Positions 1,933 through 18,490 of a stretch of 23,088 nucleotides of DNA are shown piece after piece. The notes under the pieces are model-generated. The model searched no databases. It was given only the letters and a program-made list of their open reading frames with translations, and was not told the origin of the DNA. The first letter of the stretch is position 1; each line of letters opens with the position of its first letter. The translations under genes and the position numbers were made by a program. Origin of the DNA: a virus; IMG/VR virus record IMGVR_UViG_3300042453_004207, positions 1 to 23,088 of that record; one strand, 5' to 3'.

Positions 1933-2160
1933 ATGGAATCGGACGAAAACGTAAAAACGATACAAACCGCGAATGAAAAACAGACCAAACAGTGTAGGGT
2001 TTGTGGGGAAATAAAAATTCGCGTATTAAAGGGTAAGTTTAACAAAAAGGACAAGCGCTGGATGGGCGTGTCCGGTGGTTATTGGAATGGGCACGTTTGT
2101 CCAGAATGCCACAGAAAAAGATGCGCAGAAAGACAAAGGGTGAAACGTGCAAAAGCTTAA
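1933..2160 (+). CDS. Small zinc-ribbon protein
   Basis: A 75-residue, strongly basic product. C21-x2-C24 and C56-x2-C59 form a four-Cys zinc-ribbon pattern, with the second pair in the context HVCPECHRKR. This arrangement resembles the zinc-binding cores that precede HNH or endonuclease VII domains in phages, but no nuclease residues follow, so a nucleic-acid-binding role is the most I would infer. The ATG at 1933 is preceded by CTATAGAAAC (1923-1932) rather than a Shine-Dalgarno sequence; an in-frame ATG at 1894 is less likely because it lies deep in the previous gene. Confidence 0.6.
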   Translation: MESDENVKTIQTANEKQTKQCRVCGEIKIRVLKGKFNKKDKRWMGVSGGYWNGHVCPECHRKRCAERQRVKRAKA

Positions 2161-2632
2161 AAAATTTCTAGGACGCTATTCTTTCTATATCCGCGTTTTT
2201 GTATACTCTTTAATAATGTTCACATTTATTAAAATTGCTTCATTTAGCAATAAAAAAGATCCCGAGCTAGAAAAGTTTTTTAATAAAAATTTAAATATTA
2301 TTAACCACTATTGTACCAAAGATCAGTATCGTTTGCCTTTTATGAGTAGCGTGACCTTTGGTAAGATGGAAATACCGGGAGCCATCGCTTATTGCGAACC
2401 TAAAATAAATGGGTTTAAATTAGTTTTTGACGAGAGATACTGGAATAGATTGTCTAATATTAATAAGACACAGTTGATGTTTCATGAAATGGCGCACTGT
2501 ATGTTCAACGAAGATCACCGCGATGACCCGAATCATTTTATGTATTATTCAATGAACGACATAGATGCATTATTTTTAGCTATGCAAGTTCATCAATATC
2601 TTGCTGTTAAATGCGGAGTGCCGCGTGGCTAA
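2147..2632 (+). CDS. Membrane-anchored HExxH zinc protease (metzincin-like)
   Basis: The product is 161 residues from a GTG start with AAGG seven bases upstream, overlapping the previous gene by 14 nt. A basic N-terminus and one hydrophobic segment (about residues 13-32) predict an inner-membrane anchor with the rest exported. H113-E114-M-A-H117 is a zinc-protease active site. D123 or H124 lies where the third metzincin ligand falls, although the usual Gly is replaced by Phe, and a Met-containing segment (MYYSMN) about eleven residues on could be the Met-turn. Role in the phage is unknown; it could act on envelope proteins. Family assignment below the HExxH level is inference. Confidence 0.65.
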   Translation: MQKLKKFLGRYSFYIRVFVYSLIMFTFIKIASFSNKKDPELEKFFNKNLNIINHYCTKDQYRLPFMSSVTFGKMEIPGAIAYCEPKINGFKLVFDERYWNRLSNINKTQLMFHEMAHCMFNEDHRDDPNHFMYYSMNDIDALFLAMQVHQYLAVKCGVPRG

Positions 2633-3251
2633 TCTTAGCAGCAGTACACCAGCAATTCCTGTCCTTGTGAGGAACGAGTTTCTTTACAATCAAACAAAGG
2701 GTCATGGCGAAACAACACCCGGTTGGATGGTTGGGTTGAGGACAATCAAAGGGTTTGCTGTTACTTTTTATGTACTGCTAGAAAATGGCGTGCTTTTCAC
2801 TGGACTGCCTATTCACGCCCTTTGTCATAAAAAGGACGCTCCGGCAGAAGAGCTTACTACCCTAGAGATGTGGGATTCGCTTTCTTATGATCACTCTATT
2901 TTCCAAATAGATTTTTTAAAGAAAATGTCGGCAAGCGTATTACTTAAAAATAAAAAAGTTATAAAAGGCGAGTATAAGTTCTCGATTGACTTCTCTAGCC
3001 AAGGAACGCTGAGTAACCTTTCTGAAACTCCTAATGAGTGGAAGGTTTTTCATTTTGTTAAATTAGAAAACGGTAATTTTTCTTTATATCCTCAGAATCG
3101 TATTTTATTTAAAGACGCAGCTTTAACGAAAGAAATTGATTCTAAATCTATTGATTATTTAGTTAACACTCAAGAATGGTCGTCTGAAGACGGTAATAAA
3201 TGGAATTGCGCGAATGATGAAAAGTACGTGTACGGAGTTGAAAATGAGTAA
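2625..3251 (+). CDS. Phage hypothetical protein coupled to the aminotransferase
   Basis: A 208-residue soluble product. The GTG at 2625 has GGAG six bases upstream, so I prefer it to the TTG at 2601. It overlaps the protease gene by 8 nt and the downstream aminotransferase gene by 8 nt, so translation of all three is probably coupled. Features such as VLLENG, LPIHAL and YPQNRILFKD recall conserved hypothetical proteins from other phages, but I cannot name a family or function. There are no membrane segments or obvious catalytic motifs. Because of the coupling it may act with the PLP enzyme. Confidence 0.7.
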   Translation: MANLSSSTPAIPVLVRNEFLYNQTKGHGETTPGWMVGLRTIKGFAVTFYVLLENGVLFTGLPIHALCHKKDAPAEELTTLEMWDSLSYDHSIFQIDFLKKMSASVLLKNKKVIKGEYKFSIDFSSQGTLSNLSETPNEWKVFHFVKLENGNFSLYPQNRILFKDAALTKEIDSKSIDYLVNTQEWSSEDGNKWNCANDEKYVYGVENE

Positions 3252-4182
3252 GCTAGATATGTCTTGGGGATCTCCAGCATTTTTAATTCCTTATTGGGAC
3301 ATTACTCCTATTAAAACCGATGATGTAAAAAAGCCCGAAGTCTACCAATTCGGCTCAAGAAAACAATTAAAAGAAAAGATTCTTGAGTTACATCAGCTTG
3401 TTGAGAATGCCAATGTTAAGGATAAGCACGTTGTTATCGGCGCGGGAGCTACGCAAATTATTCTAGGATTACTTAATGTTCTAAAACTTAAAAAGTCGGA
3501 TTACGCGTTTGGTAAAAAGATTACCAGTGCGTGGGCAGAACCGCCACACTTTTCACGCTTTCCGATTCTAGCCAATTTTGCTGGGCTGGATTGGAAAAAA
3601 GACAAAAACTCCTTAACCATTTGCACTATACCAAATAACCCTGACGGCGCATTTTCTACCTACGCCAAGTGCGACATTCTGGATTTAACCTATATGTGGC
3701 CGCAATACACCAACCACATTAAGAAATACAATCACCCCGTGATGGTGTTTTCTTTAAGTAAAGCAACAGGCCATGCCAGTACACGTATTGGGTGGGCAAT
3801 CATTAAAGACAAAGACATAGCCGTAGCGCTGGAGCAGTACATTGAACTAGCGTCCAGTGGACTGTCTATTGACGCTCAAATAAAAGCCGAGAAGGTTATT
3901 GATTCTCAATTCAAGCGCGATTTTACTGTTTTTGAAGACGGAAAGAAAACGCTCGAATCCAGATGGGAAACCATTAGACGCCTTAATAGAAGTGAGGCAT
4001 TTCCGTTTACCGTTTTAAATGACTCGGGAATGTTTCTTTGGGCGGAAGGTAAGTGTCCGGAAAATATTATCTGTTTACCCGGCGAAGCACTAAAAGGACA
4101 AAAAAATCAATTTCGTTTAAACATCGGCTGTTCTGACGAAACGTTTGCCAAGTTTGTTCAGATGTTTTTAACTGGAAAGTGA
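3244..4182 (+). CDS. Alliinase/TAA1-like PLP-dependent aminotransferase
   Basis: The product is 312 residues from ATG 3244 (GGAG just upstream). It has the fold-type I PLP signature in order: GAGATQ near the N-terminus, IPNNPDG (residues 129-135), D147 and Y150 in DLTYMWPQY, the Schiff-base K173 in FSLSKATGHAS, R181 in TRIGWA, and a C-terminal R291 in FRLNIG. The WP-Y, SK-TGHA-TRIGWA and SIDAQ segments match the plant alliinase C-terminal/TAA1 family (tryptophan aminotransferase and Cys-sulfoxide lyase) better than ordinary class I aminotransferases. It is shorter than TAA1 (about 390 residues) and lacks the plant EGF-like domain. Substrate is unknown: transamination of an amino acid or C-S lysis are both possible. 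Confidence 0.85.
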   Translation: MSKLDMSWGSPAFLIPYWDITPIKTDDVKKPEVYQFGSRKQLKEKILELHQLVENANVKDKHVVIGAGATQIILGLLNVLKLKKSDYAFGKKITSAWAEPPHFSRFPILANFAGLDWKKDKNSLTICTIPNNPDGAFSTYAKCDILDLTYMWPQYTNHIKKYNHPVMVFSLSKATGHASTRIGWAIIKDKDIAVALEQYIELASSGLSIDAQIKAEKVIDSQFKRDFTVFEDGKKTLESRWETIRRLNRSEAFPFTVLNDSGMFLWAEGKCPENIICLPGEALKGQKNQFRLNIGCSDETFAKFVQMFLTGK

Positions 4183-5158: not shown

Positions 5159-5587
5159 GTGTCTTTAGAAAAAATGCTAGATGAAGTTAAGGATATGTCG
5201 GAGCTTCGGGTATTTTCTGAAGCGCAACAGAAGACTATTCTAAAACTTTCCAAAAAAAATAAAGAATTAGAAGAAGAAGTTTCTCATCTTAAAAAACTTC
5301 TTGAATCTCAAACTCCAATAATTCAAACATCGGAACAACCCGCTTCCCTTGGAGAAAAATTTCTCACCAGCGATCAAGAATCTATTTGTAGGATGGAATT
5401 AAACAAGCTAAAGCAAACTTCTTTTGAGCGTGAACTAACGCTTGAAGAAGCGAAGCGAGTTGATATTTATTCCAAAATTCTAAATGTTCTTGAAAACAGC
5501 CCTAAAACTATCAAGGTCGAAACAAAAAGCATTCCAAGTCAGGACTTAATGAGCCTCGTGCAATCCGAGGAAACGGTGAATGAGTAG
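5159..5587 (+). CDS. Putative terminase small subunit
   Basis: A 142-residue product from GTG 5159 (AGGA seven bases upstream); an alternative TTG at 5153 would overlap the preceding stop. The N-terminal third is a coiled coil rich in Lys and Glu (about residues 25-50), and a segment reading LTLEEAKRVDIYSKIL resembles proteins encoded just upstream of phage terminases. It overlaps the TerL gene by 8 nt (ATGAGTAG), the usual arrangement for the small and large subunits. A helix-turn-helix DNA-binding domain is not obvious, so the name rests mainly on position and size. Confidence 0.55.
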   Translation: MSLEKMLDEVKDMSELRVFSEAQQKTILKLSKKNKELEEEVSHLKKLLESQTPIIQTSEQPASLGEKFLTSDQESICRMELNKLKQTSFERELTLEEAKRVDIYSKILNVLENSPKTIKVETKSIPSQDLMSLVQSEETVNE

Positions 5588-7040
5588 TAAAATTTCTCGC
5601 GCAGACGCCGTTAAAGAATTGTGGCGGCGTGGCGAATTATCTTGGAAACTCGACTCTGTGCAAAAAGAAATGCACAGGCGATTTTACAATGACGGATTTA
5701 AAACAAACACTTGGTTACTCGCTCGTCGTTCGGGAAAAACGTTTCTTCTTTGCGTTCTTGCACTTGAACAGTGCATTAAGGTTCCAAACAGTATTGTAAA
5801 ATTTGTTTCCCCAACAAAACTTCAGGTTAATAATAACGTTCGACCGATTTTTAAATTTCTTTTACAGGATTGTCCTGAAGATGTAAGACCTGATTTTAAA
5901 ACCAAAGATTATATTTATTATTTTCCAAACGGTTCTGAAATTCAGTTAGCTGGTACTGATAACCAACACGCTGAAAAACTTCGCGGTGGCGACTCTCACA
6001 TTTGTATCGTTGACGAAGCCGGAAGTTGCGATGGGCTAGAGAATATCATTAAGAGTATTCTTCTCCCCACTACGCTTATCACTCGTGGAAAAATGATTTT
6101 AGCGAGCACTCCTCCCAGCGAATCTGGCCACGAGTTTATTAAATTTATCGAAGACGCTGAACTCAAGGGTTCTTTAATTAAAAAAACAGTCTTTGATAAC
6201 CCTCGTATTACAACAGATCAGCTTGATGAACTCATCGAAGAACTCGGTGGATTAAACACCGATGCCGCAAGACGAGAACTTCTATGCGAAATTGTTAAAG
6301 ATAGCACCACTTCTGTTATTCCAGAAGCAACAGATGAGCTTTATAAGGAGATTGTGAAGGAATGGCCGCGCCCGCCTTTCTACGACGCTTATGAAGCTAT
6401 GGATTTAGGGTTTAACGACCTGACTGTTATCCTGTTTGGTTATTACGACTTTAGAGCGGCTAAAATTATTATTGAAGATGAGTATGTCATTAACGGGCAC
6501 CAACTTCATCTTCCTGAACTTGTTAATAAAGTTAGAGAAATTGAAGCAAAGCTTTGGACAAATCCATATACCAACGAAGTTAAGAAGCCGACAAAACGAG
6601 TTAGCGACATTGACTACATCGTTCTGAATGAAATTCGTCGTATTAGTAACAACGAAATTGTATTTGAGGCTGCTAAAAAAGATAATAACGAAGCTGCCAT
6701 TAATACACTTCGTGTTCTACTCGCCAAAAAACAAATTATTATTAATCCAAAATGTTCTACTTTACTTAGGCACTTAAAGAATGTAAAATGGAAAAGCGTA
6801 AATAACAAAGAGCGTTTTGCTCGGTCGCCAGATGACGGCCATTACGATGCCGTGGACGCTTTAAAGTATATGATTAGAAGTATGAATTATAACAAAAATC
6901 CATATCCTTCAAATCATTCTCCGGGTGCCAATGCGCCTTTTGTTGAACAATATCTTTATGCAAAAAATGGGAGCGGGGAGTCAAGCGATAACGGGAAGCT
7001 TGACATTTATAAAGCCATTTTTGGTATTAAAAGGAAGTAA
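5580..7040 (+). CDS. terL: Terminase large subunit
   Basis: This 486-residue protein is the ATPase-nuclease motor that packages phage DNA through the portal. The ATPase domain has a Walker A motif ARRSGKT (residues 48-54), Walker B HICIVDEAG with D145 and E146, and a coupling segment ILASTPP. The nuclease domain (RNase H-like) has D275 in MDLGFND and a C-terminal acidic cluster at D418-D426 in DDGHYDAVD. Length is normal for TerL. The start overlaps the upstream small gene by 8 nt, and the portal gene follows after 2 nt. Confidence 0.95.
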   Translation: MSSKISRADAVKELWRRGELSWKLDSVQKEMHRRFYNDGFKTNTWLLARRSGKTFLLCVLALEQCIKVPNSIVKFVSPTKLQVNNNVRPIFKFLLQDCPEDVRPDFKTKDYIYYFPNGSEIQLAGTDNQHAEKLRGGDSHICIVDEAGSCDGLENIIKSILLPTTLITRGKMILASTPPSESGHEFIKFIEDAELKGSLIKKTVFDNPRITTDQLDELIEELGGLNTDAARRELLCEIVKDSTTSVIPEATDELYKEIVKEWPRPPFYDAYEAMDLGFNDLTVILFGYYDFRAAKIIIEDEYVINGHQLHLPELVNKVREIEAKLWTNPYTNEVKKPTKRVSDIDYIVLNEIRRISNNEIVFEAAKKDNNEAAINTLRVLLAKKQIIINPKCSTLLRHLKNVKWKSVNNKERFARSPDDGHYDAVDALKYMIRSMNYNKNPYPSNHSPGANAPFVEQYLYAKNGSGESSDNGKLDIYKAIFGIKRK

Positions 7041-7042
7041 TC

Positions 7043-9115
7043 ATGGACGGTCAAAGTAAGTATCAATCCGCTGAAGACATTTATTTCGCAGCCAAAAAAC
7101 CCGAGCAAGTTGCTGCGGTTCTTCTTGAGAAGTCGGCGTCGTTCTTTAACGTTCTTCGAGCTAATGCTCTCCTAGAAAAGCTTCAACGGATGTGGAGAGC
7201 TTACCACGGTGCGTATGATAACGACCTCGGTTTTGGACACCGCATTAATTTTACCGGTGAACAGGGTGAATTTACGCAACTCGCTGTAAACCACTTCCGA
7301 AATATTGCACGAAATATGTTTGTGATGGTGACTTCCAATCGTCCAATCATGGAAGCTCGCGCTGTTAACACTGACTATAAATCTCTTGCCCAAACACACA
7401 TTGCCAACGGCGTTCTTGATTATTACATGCGCGAAAAGCGCCTTGAAGACTCGCTAAAATTTGCGACTGAAATGGCAATCGTTCTCGGCGCAGGATTCGT
7501 TAAGCTTGAATGGAATGCCACCGCTGGCGAAGCCTATGACGTTGATCCTGAAACCGGAGAATTTAACTACGAAGGTGAAATTGAATTCTCAAATCTTTCA
7601 CCATTTGACGTAGTTGTTGATGGAACGAGAGAATCTTGGGATAACGATTGGATTATGTGTCGTACTTTTAAGAATCGGTACGACCTCATGGCCAAATACC
7701 CAGAACTCGCTGATAAAATTAAGGCAATTCCACCAAAGAACCAAAGTTCTGTCTATCGTCTTGCTGTTTTCTCAAACGACGACACCGATGATATCCCAGT
7801 TTATGAGTTTTTCCATCGCCGCACAGAGTCCATGCCAGAGGGTCGTTACCTTCTTTTCGTTGACACTGATGCCGTGATGCTTGATGTGCCGATGCCGTAT
7901 CGCGTGATTCCAATTTTCCGTATTGCTCCGTCGAGCATTATGGGAACTCCATATGGTTACACGGATATGTTCGATATTTTCCCAATTCAGGAAGGCATTA
8001 ACGCTCTTTACAGTACTATTATGACCAACCAGAACGCTTTCGGCGTTCAAAATCTATTCGTTCCGCGTGATTCTGACGTTTCAATCGCGTCACTACAAGC
8101 CGGAATGAATATTATTGAAGGAAATAGTAAGCCAGAACCTATTAACTTTACTCAAACACCAGCGGAAGTCTTTAAGTTTCTTGAAATGCTAATTCATTCG
8201 GCTGAAACTATCTCTGGCGTTAACAGCGTTGCCAGAGGAAATCCTGAAGCTTCTCTCAAGTCGGGCGCAGCGCTTGCGCTTGTTCAAAGCATGTCGCTCC
8301 AGTTCATGTCAGGACTTCAACAGTCTTACGTTAAGCTGATTGAAGACGTTGGAACTGCGCTTATTAATATCCTCAAGGACTTCGCCAGAACTCCAAAAGT
8401 CATCGCGCTTGTTGGTAAGAACAATCGCACTGAGCTTAAAGAGTTTACAGGCGAAGATGTTAGCGCAATTAACCGCGTTGTGGTTGATGTAGGTAATCCG
8501 CTTTCTCGCACTATCGCAGGTCGCGTTCAAATGGCCGAACAAATGCTGCAAATGAATCTTATTAAGACTCCGCAGCAGTATTTTCAGGTGATGAACAGCG
8601 GTCGTCTTGATAGCATGTTTGAAGGCGAGATGAGCGAACTGATGCTTATTAAGTCTGAAAACGAAAGACTGATGGAAGGCGAAGATGTTCAAGCTTCCGC
8701 TCTTGATGCACATCGAATGCACATTATGGAACATAAGTCAGTACTTTCAGATCCGGATCTTCGCAAAGATCCGACTCTAACGGAGAAGGTTTTTAGTCAT
8801 ATTTTAGAACACATTGATCTTCTTCGTAACACTGACCCCGATCTTCTCGCAATGATCGGAGAGCAGCCGCTTCCTCCAATGCAACAACCTCTGGCCCCAA
8901 CGCCAACTGGAGAAAGCATTCCGATTCAAGGTCAAGAAAATATTCCAAATAGAACCTTGGAAAGAAGTCCAATGTCTGATATGATGGGGTTAGAAGGTGC
9001 GCCGGAAATGATTGCGCAAGCTGGAGGAGGTATGCAACAACTCCCCGAGATGCCAACACCTCCGCCTCCCTTCCAAGGAATGCCGGTTACACCGGGTCAA
9101 ATAACTCCTCAATAA
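7043..9115 (+). CDS. Portal protein
   Basis: A 690-residue protein directly downstream of TerL, with AGGAAG before its ATG. It would form the dodecameric ring through which DNA enters the capsid. Supporting features are length, position and segments typical of large podovirus-type portals: SPFDVVVDGT followed by WDNDWIMCRTFKNRYDLMAKYP (read in two parts, about residues 190-220), and a central region from RIAPSSIMGTPYGYTDMFD onwards. The C-terminal 80 residues are rich in Pro, Met and Gln and look flexible. Homology beyond these visible segments was not tested. Confidence 0.85.
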   Translation: MDGQSKYQSAEDIYFAAKKPEQVAAVLLEKSASFFNVLRANALLEKLQRMWRAYHGAYDNDLGFGHRINFTGEQGEFTQLAVNHFRNIARNMFVMVTSNRPIMEARAVNTDYKSLAQTHIANGVLDYYMREKRLEDSLKFATEMAIVLGAGFVKLEWNATAGEAYDVDPETGEFNYEGEIEFSNLSPFDVVVDGTRESWDNDWIMCRTFKNRYDLMAKYPELADKIKAIPPKNQSSVYRLAVFSNDDTDDIPVYEFFHRRTESMPEGRYLLFVDTDAVMLDVPMPYRVIPIFRIAPSSIMGTPYGYTDMFDIFPIQEGINALYSTIMTNQNAFGVQNLFVPRDSDVSIASLQAGMNIIEGNSKPEPINFTQTPAEVFKFLEMLIHSAETISGVNSVARGNPEASLKSGAALALVQSMSLQFMSGLQQSYVKLIEDVGTALINILKDFARTPKVIALVGKNNRTELKEFTGEDVSAINRVVVDVGNPLSRTIAGRVQMAEQMLQMNLIKTPQQYFQVMNSGRLDSMFEGEMSELMLIKSENERLMEGEDVQASALDAHRMHIMEHKSVLSDPDLRKDPTLTEKVFSHILEHIDLLRNTDPDLLAMIGEQPLPPMQQPLAPTPTGESIPIQGQENIPNRTLERSPMSDMMGLEGAPEMIAQAGGGMQQLPEMPTPPPPFQGMPVTPGQITPQ

Positions 9116-9179: not shown

Positions 9180-9560
9180 ATGGCTACTACCAGAAGTTAT
9201 AGCTCGTTAGACCAAAACCAAATAATGCAACGCGCTTTCGATGAAAGCAAAGATGCACTCAGGGTCCAAACCGAAGCTGTAGTTGTCGCTAACGCGATGG
9301 AAGTTGCTATTTCTGACAGAGATGATTCGATCAGACTAGGGGATGGGACAAATCTAACTCAAGTGAATCCAGACGGTTCACTGAAGGTTAGTACTGGTCT
9401 GGTGAAGGACTCGTATGATTACTTTAGTGGTAGTCATACGGAAACCACTAGCACTTATGTATATAGAAGGGGAGGAATTTCGGGAACAGTCGTAGCAACG
9501 GTGCAAATCGTTTACGCTGACTCCAATAAAGATGAAATAGTTAGTTTATCGGTAATATAA
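9180..9560 (+). CDS. Small putative virion protein
   Basis: A 126-residue product starting with MATTRSYSSLDQNQIMQRAFDESKD (shown here only as an N-terminal helix that precedes the beta-rich part). The second half is beta-strand rich and contains RRGGISGTVVATVQIVYAD, a pattern seen in small structural proteins of other tailed phages. No membrane or enzymatic motifs. It heads a run of three tightly spaced genes leading into the tail-fibre gene, so a tail or neck role is likely but inferred. Confidence 0.65.
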   Translation: MATTRSYSSLDQNQIMQRAFDESKDALRVQTEAVVVANAMEVAISDRDDSIRLGDGTNLTQVNPDGSLKVSTGLVKDSYDYFSGSHTETTSTYVYRRGGISGTVVATVQIVYADSNKDEIVSLSVI

Positions 9561-9561
9561 G

Positions 9562-9786
9562 ATGTTTAATTTGCACTTCGATCCGGTTACTACTCAATTA
9601 GTAATTGGAAAGAAAAAGAAAAGCGGCTCTGGGGGCGTAAATGGTGGTATTGCCACTATGAGCGCTCTATATGTCGTTAATGACTTGGAATTGCAGATAA
9701 ACACTGTTATAGTTAAAGACTATATAGAAGTTGCCGAAGACGGGTCATTTACAGTTTTTCAAGCTAGTACGGTGGAGATCGCCTAA
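9562..9786 (+). CDS. Small hypothetical virion-region protein
   Basis: A 74-residue product with a short Lys/Gly-rich loop (KKKKSGSGG, about residues 17-25) and otherwise alternating hydrophobic residues suggesting beta structure. It starts one base after the previous stop and shares the A of its stop with the next ATG (TAATG). Tight packing between two putative virion genes is the main clue. I do not recognise the family. Confidence 0.6.
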   Translation: MFNLHFDPVTTQLVIGKKKKSGSGGVNGGIATMSALYVVNDLELQINTVIVKDYIEVAEDGSFTVFQASTVEIA

Positions 9787-10175
9787 TGTCACAATTTATT
9801 TTTAATAAAAGATTGACACCACCGATACCCGACCTCAATAAAGTTTCCGTCTATGTAAAACCAGACGGCGAACTCTATATGAGAAAAGATTCGGGAGTAG
9901 AAGTAAAAGTTTCAGGCAAAGCCTCCATGAAAATCGAGGCTCGACTTATTACTGCCGCTGAAGCTGCTCAAAAATTCCTCGTTTTACAAGCTATTCCATC
10001 TGAACCTGAAAATATCTCCCTAATTATCGGTCATGGTGGTGGAACACAAATAAAAGGTTTAGGGTTTGATATTTCCGGAGAGAATAATACCGTTCTATAT
10101 TGGGACGGTAAAGCACTTGATGGATTTATTGAGGAGGGAGATGTTTTTCTCCTTCATTATTTAACGATCGTTTAA
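9786..10175 (+). CDS. Beta-rich structural protein with fibre-tip-like domain
   Basis: A 129-residue product. From about residue 46 it resembles the last 80 residues of the tail fibre at 10214-12613: a strand with L-x-L-x, a variable loop, a W-x-G or F-x-G turn, then a closing GD-x-hydrophobic strand (EEGDVFLLHYLTIV here, VAGDTLVVRFWVS there). This domain type is common at the C-terminus of phage fibre proteins. It overlaps the previous gene by one base, and a 38-bp A/C/T-rich spacer with GGAAGG leads to the next gene. Probably a tail or fibre accessory protein. Confidence 0.65.
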   Translation: MSQFIFNKRLTPPIPDLNKVSVYVKPDGELYMRKDSGVEVKVSGKASMKIEARLITAAEAAQKFLVLQAIPSEPENISLIIGHGGGTQIKGLGFDISGENNTVLYWDGKALDGFIEEGDVFLLHYLTIV

Positions 10176-10213
10176 TAACAACAATAATAACAACAATTTA
10201 GGAAGGTACTTAA

Positions 10214-12613
10214 ATGAGTATTTTTATTAAAAAGAAATTTATAGGCGACAACGAAGTTGACGGCGCAAAAGTATTGATGCTGAACAACCAAGCTGTTCGC
10301 GCTGAGAACGCTTCTGGAGCAGCAGTTGAACTTTTCAAGCTGGACTCTTCAAACGTTCTACAATTCGTTCAAATGCCACAGGTTTCAGCAGATCCAACTT
10401 CTGGAAACCAACTTGCTCGTAAGAGCTATGTCGATGCACAAGACGCCGCTGAAGCTGCTGCTCGTGCTGCCGCCGTTTCCGGCCTCGAAGCCGCTGTAGA
10501 CGCAGAAGAAGCTCGCGCTCTTGCTGCCGAAGCTGCGCTTCAATCCGAAATCGACGCTGAAGAATCAGCTCGCGCTGCCGCTGTAAGCGCCGAAGCGTCT
10601 GCTCGTCAGGCCGCTGATGCTGCTGAAGCCGCTGCTCGCGCTGCTGCTGATACTGCACTTCAGGAAGCTATTGACGCTGAAGAAGCTCGTGCGATTGCCG
10701 CTGAAGCTGCCCTTCAGGGTGAAATTGATGCAGAAGAATCAGCTCGCGCTGCTGCTGTTTCCGCCGAAGCTGCTGCTCGTGAAGCTGCCGACTCCGCACT
10801 TGATGCTCGTCTTGATAGCCTTGAGCTTGATAGCGTCACCAAGAGCTACGTTGACACTGAAGTCGCTGGCGCAAAAAGCTATACAGATCAAAAGGTTGCA
10901 GATCTAGTTGCATCAGCACCAGCAGTCCTTGATACCCTCAAGGAACTCGCTGATGCTCTCGGTGAAGATCCAAACTTTGCAACAACCGTTGCTGGTCAAA
11001 TTGGCGCAGAACAGGCCGCTCGCGAAGCTGCTGACTCTGCTCTTCAGTCTGAAATTGATGCTGAAGAAATGCGTGCTCTTACAGCCGAAGGCGCTCTTCA
11101 AAGCGAAATCGACGCTGAAGAAGCCGCTCGTATTGCCGCTGACGAAGCCCTCGATGGTCGCCTTGACAGCCTAGAAGCCGATAGCGTCACCAAGAGCTAC
11201 GTTGATTCACAAGACGCTCTAAAGCTTGACCTTGCCGGTGGAACCATGTCCGGCGATATCACAATGGATGGTAATGCCGTTAAGTTCCGTCCATTCGGAA
11301 TGATGGGTCAGGAAGTCAAGTTTGGAACTATTACTGTTCCCGGTCCATTTGGTCCGGTTCCTGCATTTGGAGTCGACGCCGGAAACAACGACGTTCGCAT
11401 TAGCACTTCAACTGCCGTTAAGGTTGAAATCCCATATGCAATGGGTGCTCATGAATTTGAGCTTTCTGGAATAGCAGCGAAGATCAATTTCCCTGAAGTT
11501 GTTCTCGGAAATGGTTCAAACTCCATTCTCCTAAAGGGCGTTGCTCAACCTGTTTCTGACACTGATGGCGCAAACAAGATTTACGTGGACACCACCGCTG
11601 GTAATGCGGCGGCTGCTGCTGCGCTAACTGAACAAGAACGCGCGATTGCCGCTGAAGCTGCTCTTCAGATGGCAATTGACGACCTTGAGTCCGATCTTGC
11701 CGGTGAAACCGCTGCTCGTGAATCTGCCGATAGTGGTCTTCAAAGTGCTATTGAAGCCGAAGAAGCTCGTGCTACGGGTGCGGAAGCCGCTCTCCAAGCT
11801 GAAATTGATGCAGAGGAAGTTCGTGCTGCTGCTGCCGAAGCTGCTCTTGAAGCCGCTATCGATGCAGAAGAAGCTCGTGCGATTGCCGCTGAAGCCGCTG
11901 TCGAAGCTGCTGCTGAGGCTTACACCGACGCTGCTATTGCCGCTCTAAAGGGTTCAGTAAGCGGAAGTTATGATTCTCTCAAGAAAATCGAAGACAAGAT
12001 CGAGTTTATTGTTCAAAATACCGATCCTGCCGCTCTTGATTCTCTTGCAGAAATCGTAACTGCATTCCAAGGAGCCGATGGTAGCATTAACGCTGCTATT
12101 AGCGCCCTTGCTGCAAGCGCATCTGCTGATCTCGACGCTGAAGAAGCCGCTCGTATCGCTGCTGACAGCGCTGAAGCTTCTGCTCGTCAATCAGCCGACG
12201 CTGCCCTCGATGCACGTATCGACGTTCTTGAAGCAGATCCAACCACCAAGACCTATGTTGACGCACAGGTCGCTTCAGAAGCCGCTGCTCGTATTGCAGG
12301 CGATGCTGTTCTCCAGAGCGCAATTGACGCTCTTGAAGCAAGCACTGCTGCTTTCCAACCAGCCGCTCCAGAAGTGTTCACACTATCATCAACCGATATT
12401 GCTAACCAGTACATTGAACTTTCAGTGACCGCTGTTGTTGCAAACTCTGTTGAAGTTCGCGTCAACCGCATGTTTGCTCTCCCAAGCGAGTTCACACAAT
12501 CTTCCGGTACTGCCGGTAAGGTTCGTCTGTCATTCGCTGGTGCTCTTGCAACCGGTGGACAACAGGCTCTCGTTGCTGGCGACACTCTTGTCGTCCGCTT
12601 CTGGGTTAGCTAA
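10214..12613 (+). CDS. Tail fibre protein with Ala-rich coiled-coil repeats
   Basis: A 799-residue protein. A short N-terminal domain leads to NQLARKSYVDAQ, followed by long Ala/Glu coiled coils built from repeats of the form AAEAALQSEIDAEE at about residues 75-205, 260-320, 470-580 and 635-720. Fibre hallmarks are several K-SYVD-type segments, LDTLKELADALGEDPNF, and LAGGTMSGDITMDGNAV, which opens a central beta domain (about 335-465). The last 80 residues are a beta tip. The composition predicts a trimeric, elongated fibre. GGAAGG precedes the ATG, and a strong terminator follows the stop. It could be a side or tail fibre; the receptor-binding role may lie in the downstream propeller proteins. 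Confidence 0.85.
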   Translation: MSIFIKKKFIGDNEVDGAKVLMLNNQAVRAENASGAAVELFKLDSSNVLQFVQMPQVSADPTSGNQLARKSYVDAQDAAEAAARAAAVSGLEAAVDAEEARALAAEAALQSEIDAEESARAAAVSAEASARQAADAAEAAARAAADTALQEAIDAEEARAIAAEAALQGEIDAEESARAAAVSAEAAAREAADSALDARLDSLELDSVTKSYVDTEVAGAKSYTDQKVADLVASAPAVLDTLKELADALGEDPNFATTVAGQIGAEQAAREAADSALQSEIDAEEMRALTAEGALQSEIDAEEAARIAADEALDGRLDSLEADSVTKSYVDSQDALKLDLAGGTMSGDITMDGNAVKFRPFGMMGQEVKFGTITVPGPFGPVPAFGVDAGNNDVRISTSTAVKVEIPYAMGAHEFELSGIAAKINFPEVVLGNGSNSILLKGVAQPVSDTDGANKIYVDTTAGNAAAAAALTEQERAIAAEAALQMAIDDLESDLAGETAARESADSGLQSAIEAEEARATGAEAALQAEIDAEEVRAAAAEAALEAAIDAEEARAIAAEAAVEAAAEAYTDAAIAALKGSVSGSYDSLKKIEDKIEFIVQNTDPAALDSLAEIVTAFQGADGSINAAISALAASASADLDAEEAARIAADSAEASARQSADAALDARIDVLEADPTTKTYVDAQVASEAAARIAGDAVLQSAIDALEASTAAFQPAAPEVFTLSSTDIANQYIELSVTAVVANSVEVRVNRMFALPSEFTQSSGTAGKVRLSFAGALATGGQQALVAGDTLVVRFWVS
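10829..10854 (+). repeat. 26-bp direct repeat, copy 1
   Basis: An identical 26-bp stretch beginning GATAGCGTCACC recurs at 11180-11205. Both copies encode the same DSVTKSYVD peptide at the end of a coiled-coil block. A diverged third version lies near 12235-12262. They mark internal duplication of a fibre module and are sites for recombination. Confidence 0.75.
11180..11205 (+). repeat. 26-bp direct repeat, copy 2
   Basis: The second exact copy of the repeat at 10829-10854, 351 bp downstream in the same reading frame. Recombination between the copies would delete 117 residues without changing the frame. Confidence 0.75.
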
Positions 12614-13080: not shown

Positions 13081-15699
13081 GTGATTAATTTACCAAGTTC
13101 AATAGCAAAAGGTGAGATTTTATCTTTTGCTTTAAATAAACCATTAGTTATTGCTGCGGTTTCTGATTCATATTGGTCGGATGCTTACAATATTCAGAAA
13201 TGTGTTGTTGTTTACAAATCTTCATCCGGTCATCAACGCAAGCGCCTTGAATTTGATTTTACACAAGAAAATCCAATAGTAACGGCGCAATGGTCATTAA
13301 AAGCTCGTAATTCATTTGAAATCGAAGAAATTGTTCTTATCGATTTTGATAACGGTAGTTATACGATTCCGCGTTCATCGCTCCCATCTGGTAAGGGTAT
13401 CTCTTTTGCCGGAGAGGGTGGTGGGGGATCTGTTGTTGCTGAGGTTGTGCATAATTACCAGTTAAACGGAAATGCAACTACGTCAATAGCAAACGGAAAC
13501 GACTTATATATAGGCGGTTCTTTTTCGAGCGTTAGATATTCGGCGAATGGAGTTGTTAAAATCGATTCAAATACGGCTGAAAATGTCGAATTGGATCAAT
13601 TCGCTGCGGGATTTCCTAAGATAAACGGTAATATTTCTAAGGCAGTTTACGATGGTCCCGATGTGATGTATATTATCGGGTCATTCACTCAAGTTGAAAA
13701 CCTAACCAGACGCCATTGTGCGAGATTATTAAGAAACGGAAACGATTGGGTACTTGACACCAATGTTTCAATTAATTTTCAACTTGGTTTTCCTCCAACT
13801 GATATATTAGTTCACACTAACTATCTTTTTTTTACTTGTCCCGGGTCGTTTGCTAGTTTCGTTGCGTTTAATAAAACATCGTTTGCGGTAGTGGCGTCTG
13901 GATATGGAGGGGCAAGCGCTTCGACGTTTTACAAGCTCGCGGTCGATGATCGATATGTCTATTACTGCGGATTTTTATCGGTTTCCGGAAATCAAGGTCG
14001 AATTTATAGAAGGGATCTTCAAAGTCCGTCTTTGGCTCTTGACACTTCTTTTACTTATACAACAACTAACACATCTATTACCGACATTAGTGTAGTTGGT
14101 AATGATGTTTATATTGCTGGTAGTTTTACGAATTATTCTACGGGTTATTATTTAGCAAAATTCAATAAAAATACCGGAGCAATTGACACGAATTTTGCAT
14201 CTCCTGTTAATTCTTCGCATTTAAGCGGTCGATTAATTTGGAGTATTGTCGTAGATGGCGACCATATTTATGCGGGTGGAACTATACCGCAACTTGGAAA
14301 AAATCTAATTAAAATCAACCGATTTACCGGGGCATTGCTTTCGGAGTTCGATGCCGGAACGATTTGCAGTGTTGGTTCTGGAACAGCGGTGGTCAACACG
14401 GTTGTAAAAAACGGACCTTATATTTACCCAATGGGAACTTTTGAGGGACGAAATTCTACAGCCAATTCAATTCGTGTTATAAATCTCGCAAAAGTTGATG
14501 CCGTAAGCGGAGCACTGATTACGGAATTTAATACAAAAGATCAACAACTTGCTGTGAGTGAAAAAATTTCCTTCATCGATTTTGGAACCACTGGAACGCG
14601 AGTTTTTGGAGATTTTCAAGGTTGGGGAGGATTTTCTAGGGCGGGTGTTGCAAAGTTCACAAAAGATTCTTATGGTAACTGGAAGATTGTTGAATCATTT
14701 GATCCCGGCGTCGGTGGTACCTCGGTAAATACCATGGCACTAGATGGAGATCATCTTTATCTTGGGGGTAACTTTAATACTTGGGCGGGTGCTTCTAGGT
14801 TAAAGGTGGCGCGCATTAGCTCCATCAACGGCTCTCTCGATCCGTTTTTTGGCGTTGGCGTTTTTACCAGCGGAGTTACTAGCGGACAGTTTAACGGTTT
14901 TTTAAATCAAGCCGTAAACAAAATCATTGTTGATGGCGACAATGTTTTTTTTGGAACATCGAGTACTCTTTATAGTAAAAAATCATCAACGGGTTCTGCG
15001 GTGTCCACGTCGTTTCCATACTGGATGAGTGTGAATAAACTAACAAACACAGAAAGCATTCCGACTTTTGGTCCGAATGGAATAGTTTATGAAATGCTTA
15101 TTGATGGAAATAATATTTATTTTGGTGGGACTTTCACAAGCTGGGCTGGAACAACGAGAAGTTATTTAGCAAAAGCGAATAAAACAAACGGAGCGCTAGA
15201 TACCCAGTGGGTACCACCGACAGGCTATACGGCTACCGGTTCTGGAGATTATGTGACCAAAATGAAAATGATTGGTTCAAATATTCTAGTTGGCTCGCAC
15301 ACGCAGGCTGTGGGTGGTGTTTCTGGTAACGGCGGCGTTTTCTTTGTCAACAAAGACACCGGCGCTCTTGTACAAACTTACCTAGCAACTTCTTTTGGTG
15401 GTTCATCTTCGCGAGTAACCACAGGAAGTATTTTAGAAGACGCAGAATACGTTTATCTTTGTACAGGAAGAAATGTTACAAACTTGAGCATTTCATTCCG
15501 TAGAATTCGTAAATCCGATCTTGCTCTCGACACTTCGTGGGGATTTTTTAATATCGGCGCATTGATACTTGCCGCTGAGATTTATCAAAATGAAATAATT
15601 CTCTGTACTTCTGCGAATAGTACTTTTAATTTAATGCCGCACTCTAAAAGAATTTTTTCAATGAATACCTCCGATGGTAGTCAAAGGGCTAACATTTAA
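13081..15699 (+). CDS. Receptor-binding protein candidate, delta-60-like propeller (paralogue 1)
   Basis: An 872-residue protein from a GTG start preceded by GGGGG. Residues 1-110 are the shared N-terminal domain, followed by the hinge GEGGGGS (111-117). The rest is built from repeats of about 40-60 residues of the type LYLGGNFNTWAGASR, then KVARISSINGSLDPFF, matching delta-60/DUF5122-like propeller repeats. The architecture suggests a virion-docked protein with a beta-propeller head that binds a host surface structure. The coding sequence is AT-rich (16 of 60 bases G+C at 14101-14160). It is followed by a terminator and then by a co-linear paralogue. Confidence 0.8.
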   Translation: MINLPSSIAKGEILSFALNKPLVIAAVSDSYWSDAYNIQKCVVVYKSSSGHQRKRLEFDFTQENPIVTAQWSLKARNSFEIEEIVLIDFDNGSYTIPRSSLPSGKGISFAGEGGGGSVVAEVVHNYQLNGNATTSIANGNDLYIGGSFSSVRYSANGVVKIDSNTAENVELDQFAAGFPKINGNISKAVYDGPDVMYIIGSFTQVENLTRRHCARLLRNGNDWVLDTNVSINFQLGFPPTDILVHTNYLFFTCPGSFASFVAFNKTSFAVVASGYGGASASTFYKLAVDDRYVYYCGFLSVSGNQGRIYRRDLQSPSLALDTSFTYTTTNTSITDISVVGNDVYIAGSFTNYSTGYYLAKFNKNTGAIDTNFASPVNSSHLSGRLIWSIVVDGDHIYAGGTIPQLGKNLIKINRFTGALLSEFDAGTICSVGSGTAVVNTVVKNGPYIYPMGTFEGRNSTANSIRVINLAKVDAVSGALITEFNTKDQQLAVSEKISFIDFGTTGTRVFGDFQGWGGFSRAGVAKFTKDSYGNWKIVESFDPGVGGTSVNTMALDGDHLYLGGNFNTWAGASRLKVARISSINGSLDPFFGVGVFTSGVTSGQFNGFLNQAVNKIIVDGDNVFFGTSSTLYSKKSSTGSAVSTSFPYWMSVNKLTNTESIPTFGPNGIVYEMLIDGNNIYFGGTFTSWAGTTRSYLAKANKTNGALDTQWVPPTGYTATGSGDYVTKMKMIGSNILVGSHTQAVGGVSGNGGVFFVNKDTGALVQTYLATSFGGSSSRVTTGSILEDAEYVYLCTGRNVTNLSISFRRIRKSDLALDTSWGFFNIGALILAAEIYQNEIILCTSANSTFNLMPHSKRIFSMNTSDGSQRANI

Positions 15700-15757: not shown

Positions 15758-18490
15758 ATGATTAATTTACCAAGCTCTTTAGCCAAGGGCGAAATTCTTA
15801 CTTTTGCTCTTAATAAGACATTAGTAACATCGGCTACTTCGGACACTTATTGGTCCGATACCGCAAATATTCAAAAGTGTATCGTTGTTTATAAATCAAC
15901 CTCAGGTCATCAACGCAAGAAACTTGAGTTTGATTTTACACAAGAATCACCAACAACTACTGCCGAATGGTCAGTTAAAGCGCGTAATGCATTTGAAATC
16001 GAAGAGATTGTTCTCATCGATTTTGACGGCGGTAGTTACACGATTCCGCGTTCTTCACTTCCGTCTGGTAAGGGTATTTCCTTTGCTGGAGAAGGCGGCG
16101 GAGGTGGTGGATCGATTGTCACTGAAGTTGTGCATAATTATATGCCAAACGGCGCAATTAATGATATGGCCACAGACGGTAGTAATATCTTCATTGGTGG
16201 GGCGTTTACCCAACTTCGTTTTATGGCTCCCTATGCCGCCACGATCAGCTCAACAACGGCTGAGAACGTGCTCACTGATCAGATGAGTGGGAAGTTCCCT
16301 CAATTTAACGGAGCTATTAATTGCTTTGTTTTTGACGGGCCAAACACCCTTTTTGTCGGTGGCAATTTCACTCAAATGAACGGCGTAGCACGCAGAGGTA
16401 TCGCCAAACTCATCAGGTCAGGAAATGGATGGGTATCTGACGCTTCCTGGAATGAGCTCGGAAAGAGAGAATTGAATAACGCGAACGCGAATGCTCTTTC
16501 TATCTATGGAGACGAACTCTACATTGGTTCCGGTGGCAGTGCTGCCTTTTACAAGGACAATCTTGGAGTCAGCAGCGGGATCTATTTTGCAGCAGTAAAC
16601 AAAAACACAGGGGCAAAGATAGCTAGCGGTTTTGTCGGCACCGGAGGCATTTTTGCTAACGTAACAGGTGCCTATACCTCTGCAATCGAAACGGACGAAA
16701 CACACACCTATTTTTCATGCGGATTCGATTCTACTGCGTTTTCAGTGTGCCGATACAATCGCGAAACTAAAGCGATCGAAAAAATTCTTTCGCAAGTCAC
16801 GTTTTCAGGGAATTCTGGTGGCATCTATTGTTTGAAGGTAGTTGGCGGTGATCTGTTCATCGGTGGAGGAAACCTCTATGTGAACGGCACCATCACAAAC
16901 GACAGAAACCTTCTTAAATATAATAAAGGCACACTGCAAAAAGATGCGACCTTCCAAGCGATCATTTCCACGACTGATCAGATCAATGTAAGAGTTCTGA
17001 AGATTTTAACTGACGCGTCTGGAAATCTAATCGTCGGTGGCCGTTTTCTTAGTTCTTTAGGCAACAATCTAGCGAAGATTGACAAATCTACTGGCGCAAA
17101 AATCACAGCATTTAACAGCGGAAATGTTGCCAGAAACAACCTTGCTATCTCCTCCAACGGAAGGGGTTTCGTTAGCGACATGGTAATCTCTGGTGGGGTT
17201 CTCTATGTTGCTGGGAAGTTTTCTGGTCAGGGGATTACTGCGGACCCTATTACAGTCCGAAATGTGGCTAAGGTCGATGTTACTACTGGCGAAGTCGACA
17301 CCGCATTCTTGTCAAAGGACTCTCTTTTGGATTTTTCCTCTGTCGATTTTCCCGAGCACGTCAACTGCTTGGTGTTGGATTCCGATAGACTTATTCTCGG
17401 TGGTGTTTTTCCAGCTTACGGAGGCTACGCTCGCCAGGGCGTCGCGAAGCTCACGAAGGACGCTGATGGGAATTGGAAGGTAGTCGACGCGTTCAATACC
17501 GCAAGCGGTGGGACCGCAGTGAACACACTGGCACTCTCTGGGAACGATCTCTACATCGGTGGCACGTTCACGACCTGGGCGGGCTCGGCGCGAAACCGCG
17601 TCGCAAAGCTCAACGCTACGACCGGGGCACTCGACCCGAGCTTCGGGTTCGGTGTGTTTACGAGCGGACTTATGACCGGGCAGTTCAACGGCGTGACAAA
17701 CACTGTGAACAAGTTGGTCGTCGATGGAACAGATCTGGTGATCGCTGGCGCGTTTACGACCTATTCTAGAAAATCTTCTTCGAGCGCCGCAGTCAACACG
17801 TCGACGCCTTACTGGATCAGGGTCAACACATCGACGAACACCGAAACGGTCCCATCATTCGGTGCCCCAAGCTCCATTGTGGATTTTGATATCCTCGGAG
17901 ACTCAATTTTCGCTGGGGGAAGTTTTACCACATGGGGCGGAACTAACCTTGGAACCGCAGCAGGAACCGGCAGACTTGCGAAAGCAAATAAAGTCACAGG
18001 AGCGCTGGATACTGCTTTCGTTCCCGATTTCAGCGGTGGAATTATCCTTGTGAAAGCGACCTCAGCTGGGATTTTTGTTGGAACCCAAGGCGCATCGATC
18101 AACGGAGTCTCAGGACCTCTTGCGGCTCAGAGTTCGGGCTCGGCATTTTTGAACGCGAATACCGGAGCGACTGTTCAGCAGTATTTTGAACCGTTCATCT
18201 CTCTGTCTGTTGGTGTAATCGCTGAGAATTCAACGCACTACTTCATTTCAGGCGTTAGCACCGGGAATGGCTTTGGACTCGCAAAGATAGCTAAGACCGA
18301 TCTCCAGATCGCGCCGGTTGTCTATTCTCCGCAGGGCAGTAATGCCTATAGCGCGATTGGTGGAATGGTCGCGGTTGGTGGGGAGATCATTGTCGGATTC
18401 GCTGCGACAAACCCTTATTTCTTCACTCCAAAGGAGAAATATCTCTTTTCGATCTCCGAATCTTCGGGACAGCTAAACTCCAATATCTAA
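15758..18490 (+). CDS. Receptor-binding protein candidate, delta-60-like propeller (paralogue 2)
   Basis: A 910-residue paralogue of the preceding gene. The first 110 residues are nearly the same (FEIEEIVLIDFD, SSLPSGKGISFAGEGGGG), then the propeller half diverges but keeps order: for example LYIGGTFTTWAGSARNRVAK here against LYLGGNFNTWAGASRLKVAR there, and FGVFTSG with GQFNG in both. Base composition changes along the gene: the first 400 bp resemble paralogue 1, whereas 17581-17640 has 42 of 60 bases G+C. This suggests the head region came from a phage of higher GC content. ATG start with AAGGA upstream; a strong terminator follows. Confidence 0.8.
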   Translation: MINLPSSLAKGEILTFALNKTLVTSATSDTYWSDTANIQKCIVVYKSTSGHQRKKLEFDFTQESPTTTAEWSVKARNAFEIEEIVLIDFDGGSYTIPRSSLPSGKGISFAGEGGGGGGSIVTEVVHNYMPNGAINDMATDGSNIFIGGAFTQLRFMAPYAATISSTTAENVLTDQMSGKFPQFNGAINCFVFDGPNTLFVGGNFTQMNGVARRGIAKLIRSGNGWVSDASWNELGKRELNNANANALSIYGDELYIGSGGSAAFYKDNLGVSSGIYFAAVNKNTGAKIASGFVGTGGIFANVTGAYTSAIETDETHTYFSCGFDSTAFSVCRYNRETKAIEKILSQVTFSGNSGGIYCLKVVGGDLFIGGGNLYVNGTITNDRNLLKYNKGTLQKDATFQAIISTTDQINVRVLKILTDASGNLIVGGRFLSSLGNNLAKIDKSTGAKITAFNSGNVARNNLAISSNGRGFVSDMVISGGVLYVAGKFSGQGITADPITVRNVAKVDVTTGEVDTAFLSKDSLLDFSSVDFPEHVNCLVLDSDRLILGGVFPAYGGYARQGVAKLTKDADGNWKVVDAFNTASGGTAVNTLALSGNDLYIGGTFTTWAGSARNRVAKLNATTGALDPSFGFGVFTSGLMTGQFNGVTNTVNKLVVDGTDLVIAGAFTTYSRKSSSSAAVNTSTPYWIRVNTSTNTETVPSFGAPSSIVDFDILGDSIFAGGSFTTWGGTNLGTAAGTGRLAKANKVTGALDTAFVPDFSGGIILVKATSAGIFVGTQGASINGVSGPLAAQSSGSAFLNANTGATVQQYFEPFISLSVGVIAENSTHYFISGVSTGNGFGLAKIAKTDLQIAPVVYSPQGSNAYSAIGGMVAVGGEIIVGFAATNPYFFTPKEKYLFSISESSGQLNSNI

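Follow-up and report, generated by a model that had tools for sequence, protein, structure and literature searches.

A compact PLP enzyme of the TAA1/alliinase clade encoded by several types of phage

Introduction

An uncultured phage encodes a 312-residue protein that is almost certainly a PLP enzyme of the clade that contains plant TAA1 and garlic alliinase, and relatives of this enzyme are found in 38 further IMG/VR contigs, which represent several unrelated phage types. The window, meaning the whole stretch of DNA analyzed here, is an IMG/VR virus contig of 23,088 bases. The tryptophan-aminotransferase clade has been described as almost exclusively plant (PMC9309667), with single TAA orthologues in green algae (PMC10015382). 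Relatives of TAA have also been noted in choanoflagellates and algae, and proteins of about 25% identity are cited for bacteria and archaea (PMC4754409). The presence of a divergent branch, under selection, in several types of phage closes a gap in the known range of the clade, and bears on the disputed origin of the plant TAA genes. The phage enzyme is compact, at about 310 residues, and its distinct conserved residues make predictions of its substrate testable.

The gene and its genome

The reading frame of the enzyme is intact, with 312 codons for 312 amino acids. It starts with ATG, and its first 8 nt overlap the end of the upstream gene (Table 1). The presence of terminase and portal genes in the record identifies the window as a fragment of a tailed phage, and the enzyme gene qualifies as a phage auxiliary metabolic gene, being a gene for a metabolic enzyme that lies in a bona fide phage genome and is under selection. 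The nearest cultured relative of the terminase is that of the Silvanigrella aquatica phage CP017838, at 29.8% identity, and the portal protein is 28% identical to its counterpart in the same phage. As the nearest cultured relatives are this Silvanigrella phage, for terminase and portal, and Myxococcus phage Mx1, for the GroEL of the type C phages described below, our guess is that the hosts may lie near Bdellovibrionota or Myxococcota.

Table 1. Features of the window around the PLP enzyme gene (contig positions)
Feature	Position	Strand	Evidence or remark
PhageMetallopep protein, HEMAH motif, two genes upstream of the enzyme	2147..2632	+	PF18894 1.3e-5
phrog_3704 protein, probable GTG start	2625..3251	+	phrog_3704 1.5e-50; last 8 nt overlap enzyme gene
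Shine-Dalgarno-like GGAG, 6 nt 5' of the enzyme ATG	3234..3237	+	read from sequence
TAA1/alliinase-like PLP enzyme, 312 aa, PLP lysine K173	3244..4182	+	PF04864, TAA1 match, AlphaFold2, Z 36, purifying selection
Peptidase M15-type endolysin, convergent, abuts enzyme stop codon	4183..4737	-	phrog_894 9.3e-9; PF08291 1.3e-5
Terminase large subunit	5580..7040	+	phrog_2 2.3e-34
P22-like portal protein	7043..9115	+	PF16510 1.1e-8

Family and fold

The initial annotation, which was made from the letters of the DNA, had placed the protein with TAA1 and alliinase and not with the ordinary bacterial class I aminotransferases, quoting the motifs SK-TGHA-TRIGWA, DLTYMWPQY and SIDAQ. All three are present in the 312-aa reading frame, and the assignment is borne out by the family profile, the PDB matches, the fold and the tree. 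Alliinase_C (PF04864) is the best Pfam family of the window protein, with 144.2 bits (6.5e-42) against a cut-off of 22 bits, and it is matched by all viral members tested (27/27). NCBIfam gave weak matches to the window protein, all of them below the cut-off. In a sequence search of the PDB, the window protein matched Arabidopsis TAA1 at 2.8e-30 and garlic alliinase at 8.6e-23, and the next entry stood at 0.0035. When a profile of 27 viral members was used, the values became 8.8e-66 for TAA1 (residues 21-382) and 2.6e-55 for alliinase, with the best ordinary aminotransferase at 6.1e-16.

The AlphaFold2 model of the window protein is of high quality (pLDDT 93.0, pTM 0.91) and its residues 1-312, the full length, were aligned in the fold comparison. 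The model matches garlic alliinase (1lk9) with a Z-score of 36.1 and an rmsd of 2.4 over 310 residues, and TAA1 (3bwo) with the same Z of 36.1 and an rmsd of 2.0 over 306 residues; the second TAA1 structure, 3bwn, likewise gives Z 36. The next-best fold is an aspartate aminotransferase from Thermus (5bj4, Z 28.0). This enzyme and E. coli AspC share fold-type I, the PLP lysine and the arginines with the phage protein, but the fold score is lower.

The competing account would be an ordinary bacterial class I aminotransferase, taken from a host and resembling alliinase by chance. The window protein does match the corresponding profile, Aminotran_1_2 (PF00155, 36.1 bits, 5.6e-9), as is expected within one superfamily; however, PF04864 is ahead of it by 108 bits.

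Compared with the plant enzymes, the window protein shares with Arabidopsis TAA1, TAR1 and TAR2 (3bwn, 3bwo) the Alliinase_C family, all PLP ligands and the arginine for the alpha-carboxylate, but it has 312 residues where TAA1 has 391. With garlic alliinase (1lk9, 2hor) it shares the core motif SKxTGH..R.GWA. The EGF-like domain of alliinase, in contrast, is absent from the viral protein according to Pfam, and viral residue 1 aligns with alliinase residue 56.

Residues of the active site

Seven residues, Tyr34, Asn132, Asp147, Tyr150, Lys173, Arg181 and Arg291, are invariant in the alignment of 27 viral proteins. Their equivalents in TAA1 are Tyr58, Asn168, Asp191, Tyr194, Lys217, Arg225 and Arg363, and the last five correspond in alliinase to Asp225, Tyr228, Lys251, Arg259 and Arg401. 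These five had been singled out at the start as the key residues, and the set that makes up the PLP pocket is indeed complete. A further group, consisting of His50, Trp152, Tyr155, His177 and Trp184, is common to the viral and plant proteins and missing from the four bacterial aminotransferases compared, which argues against an ordinary aminotransferase; among the viral proteins, His177 is conserved in 24 and Trp184 in 26 of 27.

Two charged residues set the viral proteins apart. Glu201 is present in all 27 of them, at a position occupied by Ile245 in TAA1, Thr279 in alliinase and Ser, Gly or His in the four bacterial enzymes. Arg105 is present in 26 of 27 and absent from both plant enzymes, the TAA1 residue being Thr131. 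A third difference from TAA1 is Gly262-Met263 in place of Pro325-Ala326. In the alignment, the Asn of the T-S-N motif of class I bacterial enzymes follows Glu201 at a distance of five residues. In E. coli AspC the Asn of the Y-S-N motif follows Arg280, which is Arg292 in the common numbering, at the same distance, so that this arginine falls in the column of Glu201; the equivalence is anchored on a short sequence, and the profile alignment to AspC stopped short of the region. Arg292 of aspartate aminotransferase binds the side-chain carboxylate of the substrate and governs specificity, and reversal of its charge by mutation has been cited (PMC11286295); the same role for the side-chain carboxylate is given for the yeast and chicken enzymes (PMC6715241). 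A conserved glutamate at this position, where aspartate aminotransferases carry an arginine, suggests that the side chain of the substrate is positively charged. The main alternative is that Glu201 could form an ion pair with Arg105, within or between subunits, in which case it would be silent on the charge of the substrate.

Phylogeny and selection

In a tree that included two plant rows and four bacterial rows as the outgroup, the viral and plant proteins (TAA1 and alliinase) were separated from the bacterial class I aminotransferases by a branch with 100/100 support. Profile, fold, tree and residues together rule out the ordinary class I aminotransferase, and we give that account a negligible chance. 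TAA1 and alliinase also form a pair with 100/100 support, apart from all viral rows, and the window protein does not sit with TAA1/TAR, as it lies off the branch that leads to TAA1 after the split from alliinase. The tree placed the plant pair among the viral rows at moderate support, but a single viral clade was not rejected (p-AU 0.246, or 0.18 when the longest row is removed). Since only two eukaryote sequences are in the tree, no direction of transfer is claimed.

The enzyme genes are under strong purifying selection in the pairs compared. Between the window and its 81% identical orthologue in contig L024, pS is 0.92 and pN 0.13; L018 and L028 give a dN/dS of about 0.08, and in the other pairs pN is far below pS. 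A pseudogene is ruled out by the same excess of pS over pN.

Distribution among phages and scans of other collections

The DNA pattern SKxTGHxxxRxGW matched 27 contigs in IMG/VR, of which 26 encode relatives, and a profile-guided scan confirmed 38 loci, made up of these 26 and 12 more. The viral relatives are 24-81% identical to the window protein. Phage types were told apart by gene content. Type A comprises the window, L024, L007/L023, L012/L016 and L042, and has a set of phrog_3704, PLP enzyme, endolysin, terminase and portal genes. In type B, a conserved 360-residue protein lies downstream of the enzyme, and the upstream protein, read by eye, may be a class II-like ribonucleotide reductase. 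Type C (L018, L028, L053, L054, L055) has GroEL, one or more small ORFs, the enzyme and then an SbcC/gp46-like nuclease, the last assigned by Pfam on L018. The remaining contigs have little in common with types A to C. Among cultured phages, the closest relative of the GroEL of type C is in Myxococcus phage Mx1 (L076), at 42.5%; there a single small gene stands between GroEL and the nuclease, with no PLP enzyme in the slot. Given this slot without the enzyme in Mx1 and with it in five contigs, the enzyme looks optional but long-standing at the place between GroEL and nuclease. Within type B, contig L006 carries hexanucleotide arrays of TAGGTC and GGTCTG (9488-9648 and 10115-10275, about 27 copies each), and L043 is similar.

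The initial annotation knew of no described phage member. This holds for the collections searched, although the window protein is not unique, given the 38 other viral contigs. The window protein had no match in PHROG and no matching record in INPHARED at E < 0.01; among the BFVD viral predicted structures the best model was a generic aminotransferase, 14% identical; and no report of a phage alliinase or phage tryptophan aminotransferase was found in the literature searched. The class I aminotransferase-like PHROG phrog_5879 does match 18 of the 27 viral members weakly, but not the window protein. It was rejected as an earlier viral family, being a generic aminotransferase profile that matches 14 of 14 bacterial and archaeal control genomes, and weak Staphylococcus phage matches (22%) were likewise taken as generic.

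Plasmids gave no match with the relative in L010 as the query. In cellular prokaryotes, a profile-guided scan of 84,980 species, covering contigs of 3 kb and longer and possibly passing over records near the window, confirmed no relative. The sensitivity of these scans is limited: of the 38 viral loci, the DNA pattern by itself finds 26. Two pattern matches in prokaryotes (L068, L069) proved to be spurious frames in unrelated genes. In 299 genomes from one phylum, the top-scoring profile match was a generic aminotransferase at 47 bits, against 227-440 bits for the viral records, which also speaks against an ordinary aminotransferase borrowed from a host. The pattern match in 398 genomes of the first phylum was only the known spurious one, and a 149-genome sample of the second phylum gave nothing at 1e-15. 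One broader view is that of a family found mainly in phages and largely absent from cellular prokaryotes, which acts on a substrate of its own, either a cationic amino acid or an intermediate made by the phage, and from which the eukaryotic genes that led to auxin synthesis in plants may derive; we regard it as speculative and rather improbable.

Proposed function

Our favored reading, which we put at even chances, is a fold-type I PLP transaminase that belongs to the TAA1/alliinase clade and has a distinct substrate, possibly a cationic one, serving as an auxiliary metabolic gene of several phage types. The enzyme would most likely be a homodimer, with PLP on Lys173 and with Tyr34 of the partner subunit, Asp147, Tyr150 and Arg181 placed around the cofactor. 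Arg291 would hold the alpha-carboxylate of the substrate, and the reaction would be the transamination of one L-amino acid. Best supported is a functional PLP enzyme that acts on an amino acid: the family, the predicted fold, the complete site residues, the selection and the occurrence in many phages are observed, whereas the dimer, the transamination, the class of substrate and the benefit to the phage are inferred. That the enzyme is a transaminase we consider fairly likely. That the substrate is cationic is a tentative proposal, less probable than its opposite, with Lys, Arg, ornithine or a relative with a positive side chain as the leading guess. The gene is common to several unrelated phage types and would presumably benefit the phage.

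The site is the same in TAA1 and alliinase, so homology cannot separate transamination from beta-elimination, and each plant activity has to be weighed. A TAA1-like enzyme would transaminate tryptophan or another aromatic amino acid to the 2-oxo acid, such as indole-3-pyruvate, tapping the host aromatic pool or making a signaling indole. Among PDB entries, TAA1 matches best by sequence and is joint best by fold, and its own specificity for aromatic amino acids is promiscuous (PMC9309667). However, the plant pair groups apart from the viral proteins, a charged Glu201 in place of Ile245 would suit an aromatic side chain poorly, and the neighbors examined included no recognizable YUCCA-like gene or other gene of the auxin pathway. 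We therefore hold this activity to be unlikely, and the production of indole-pyruvate, as first suggested for the protein, found no positive support.

The case for an alliinase-like enzyme, a PLP C-S or beta-lyase that turns a cysteine derivative into pyruvate, ammonia and a sulfur product, rests on a fold score over 310 residues equal to that of TAA1 and on the match to garlic alliinase by sequence. The sequence scores nevertheless favor TAA1, the EGF-like N-terminal region is missing, and there is no recurring sulfur-metabolism gene nearby, only a single HesB-like Fe-S carrier confined to the L056 lineage; we judge such a lyase improbable as well. The separate plant grouping and the viral Glu201, at a position that probably contacts the substrate, mean that neither plant activity is transferable to the viral enzyme. 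The presence in the viral clade of Glu201 and Arg105, both missing from the two plant enzymes, indicates that the substrate probably differs from the Trp of TAA1 and the Cys sulfoxides of alliinase.

Neighboring genes

No convincing recurring neighbor, pathway partner or operon partner was found across the phage types in the gene contexts of the viral contigs. The order of phrog_3704 and enzyme is conserved in L024, L007/L023, L012/L016 and L042/L078, and in type A the two genes overlap. The phrog_3704 family is, however, very common in phages, with at least 587 confirmed IMG/VR relatives (including L078-L157), and among the best 80 of these the enzyme adjoins in two type A contigs only. A dedicated pathway partner is thus ruled out, as phrog_3704 mostly occurs elsewhere without the enzyme. 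Its protein gives a 207-residue, beta-rich model (pLDDT 77) whose best PDB match has Z 5.1, none being clear, so that the labels "ferredoxin" and "PurM" in cyanophage and pelagiphage records look doubtful.

Nearby genes also bear on the suggestion that the enzyme modifies a nucleobase or an envelope component, for which no positive evidence emerged. In its general form, the enzyme would serve the modification of DNA bases or glycans by aminating a nucleotide or sugar precursor specific to the phage. ThyX and IMP dehydrogenase/GMP reductase genes lie near the L062 enzyme, and dCMP-deaminase-like and SIS-domain genes directly 3' of the L064 enzyme, as such a role would lead one to expect. Nucleotide and sugar genes are common in large phages, though, and those seen here do not recur across phage types and are lacking in the window; moreover, the invariant Arg291, as a ligand of the alpha-carboxylate, points to amino-acid substrates. 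Modification of a base or glycan is thus very unlikely, and an amino-acid transaminase stays the preferred reading.

The PhageMetallopep gene occupies the same place in all five type A contigs. In types A, B and D, small HExxH metallopeptidases lie no more than three genes away from the enzyme, the examples being the one in the window and those in L035, L043 and L046 and in L058 and L062. They look non-homologous and are too few to judge, and their proximity is possibly due to chance. A Cas12f1-like/TnpB-type zinc domain ORF lies directly 3' of the enzyme in L048 (7171-8256, + strand; PF07282, 4.6e-16), and the HesB/IscA-like Fe-S carrier gene of L056 (6970-7287, - strand; PF01521, 2.4e-16) is tail to tail with the enzyme gene. 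Farther along the window, positions 10214-12613 (+) encode a 799-aa protein rich in EEARA/AAEAAL repeats, with 54-base tandem repeats in the DNA. The adjacent ORFs at 13081-15699 and 15758-18490 (both +), of 872 and 910 aa, have very similar starts (MINLPSS-AKGEI--FALNK) and look like duplicated tail or fiber proteins.
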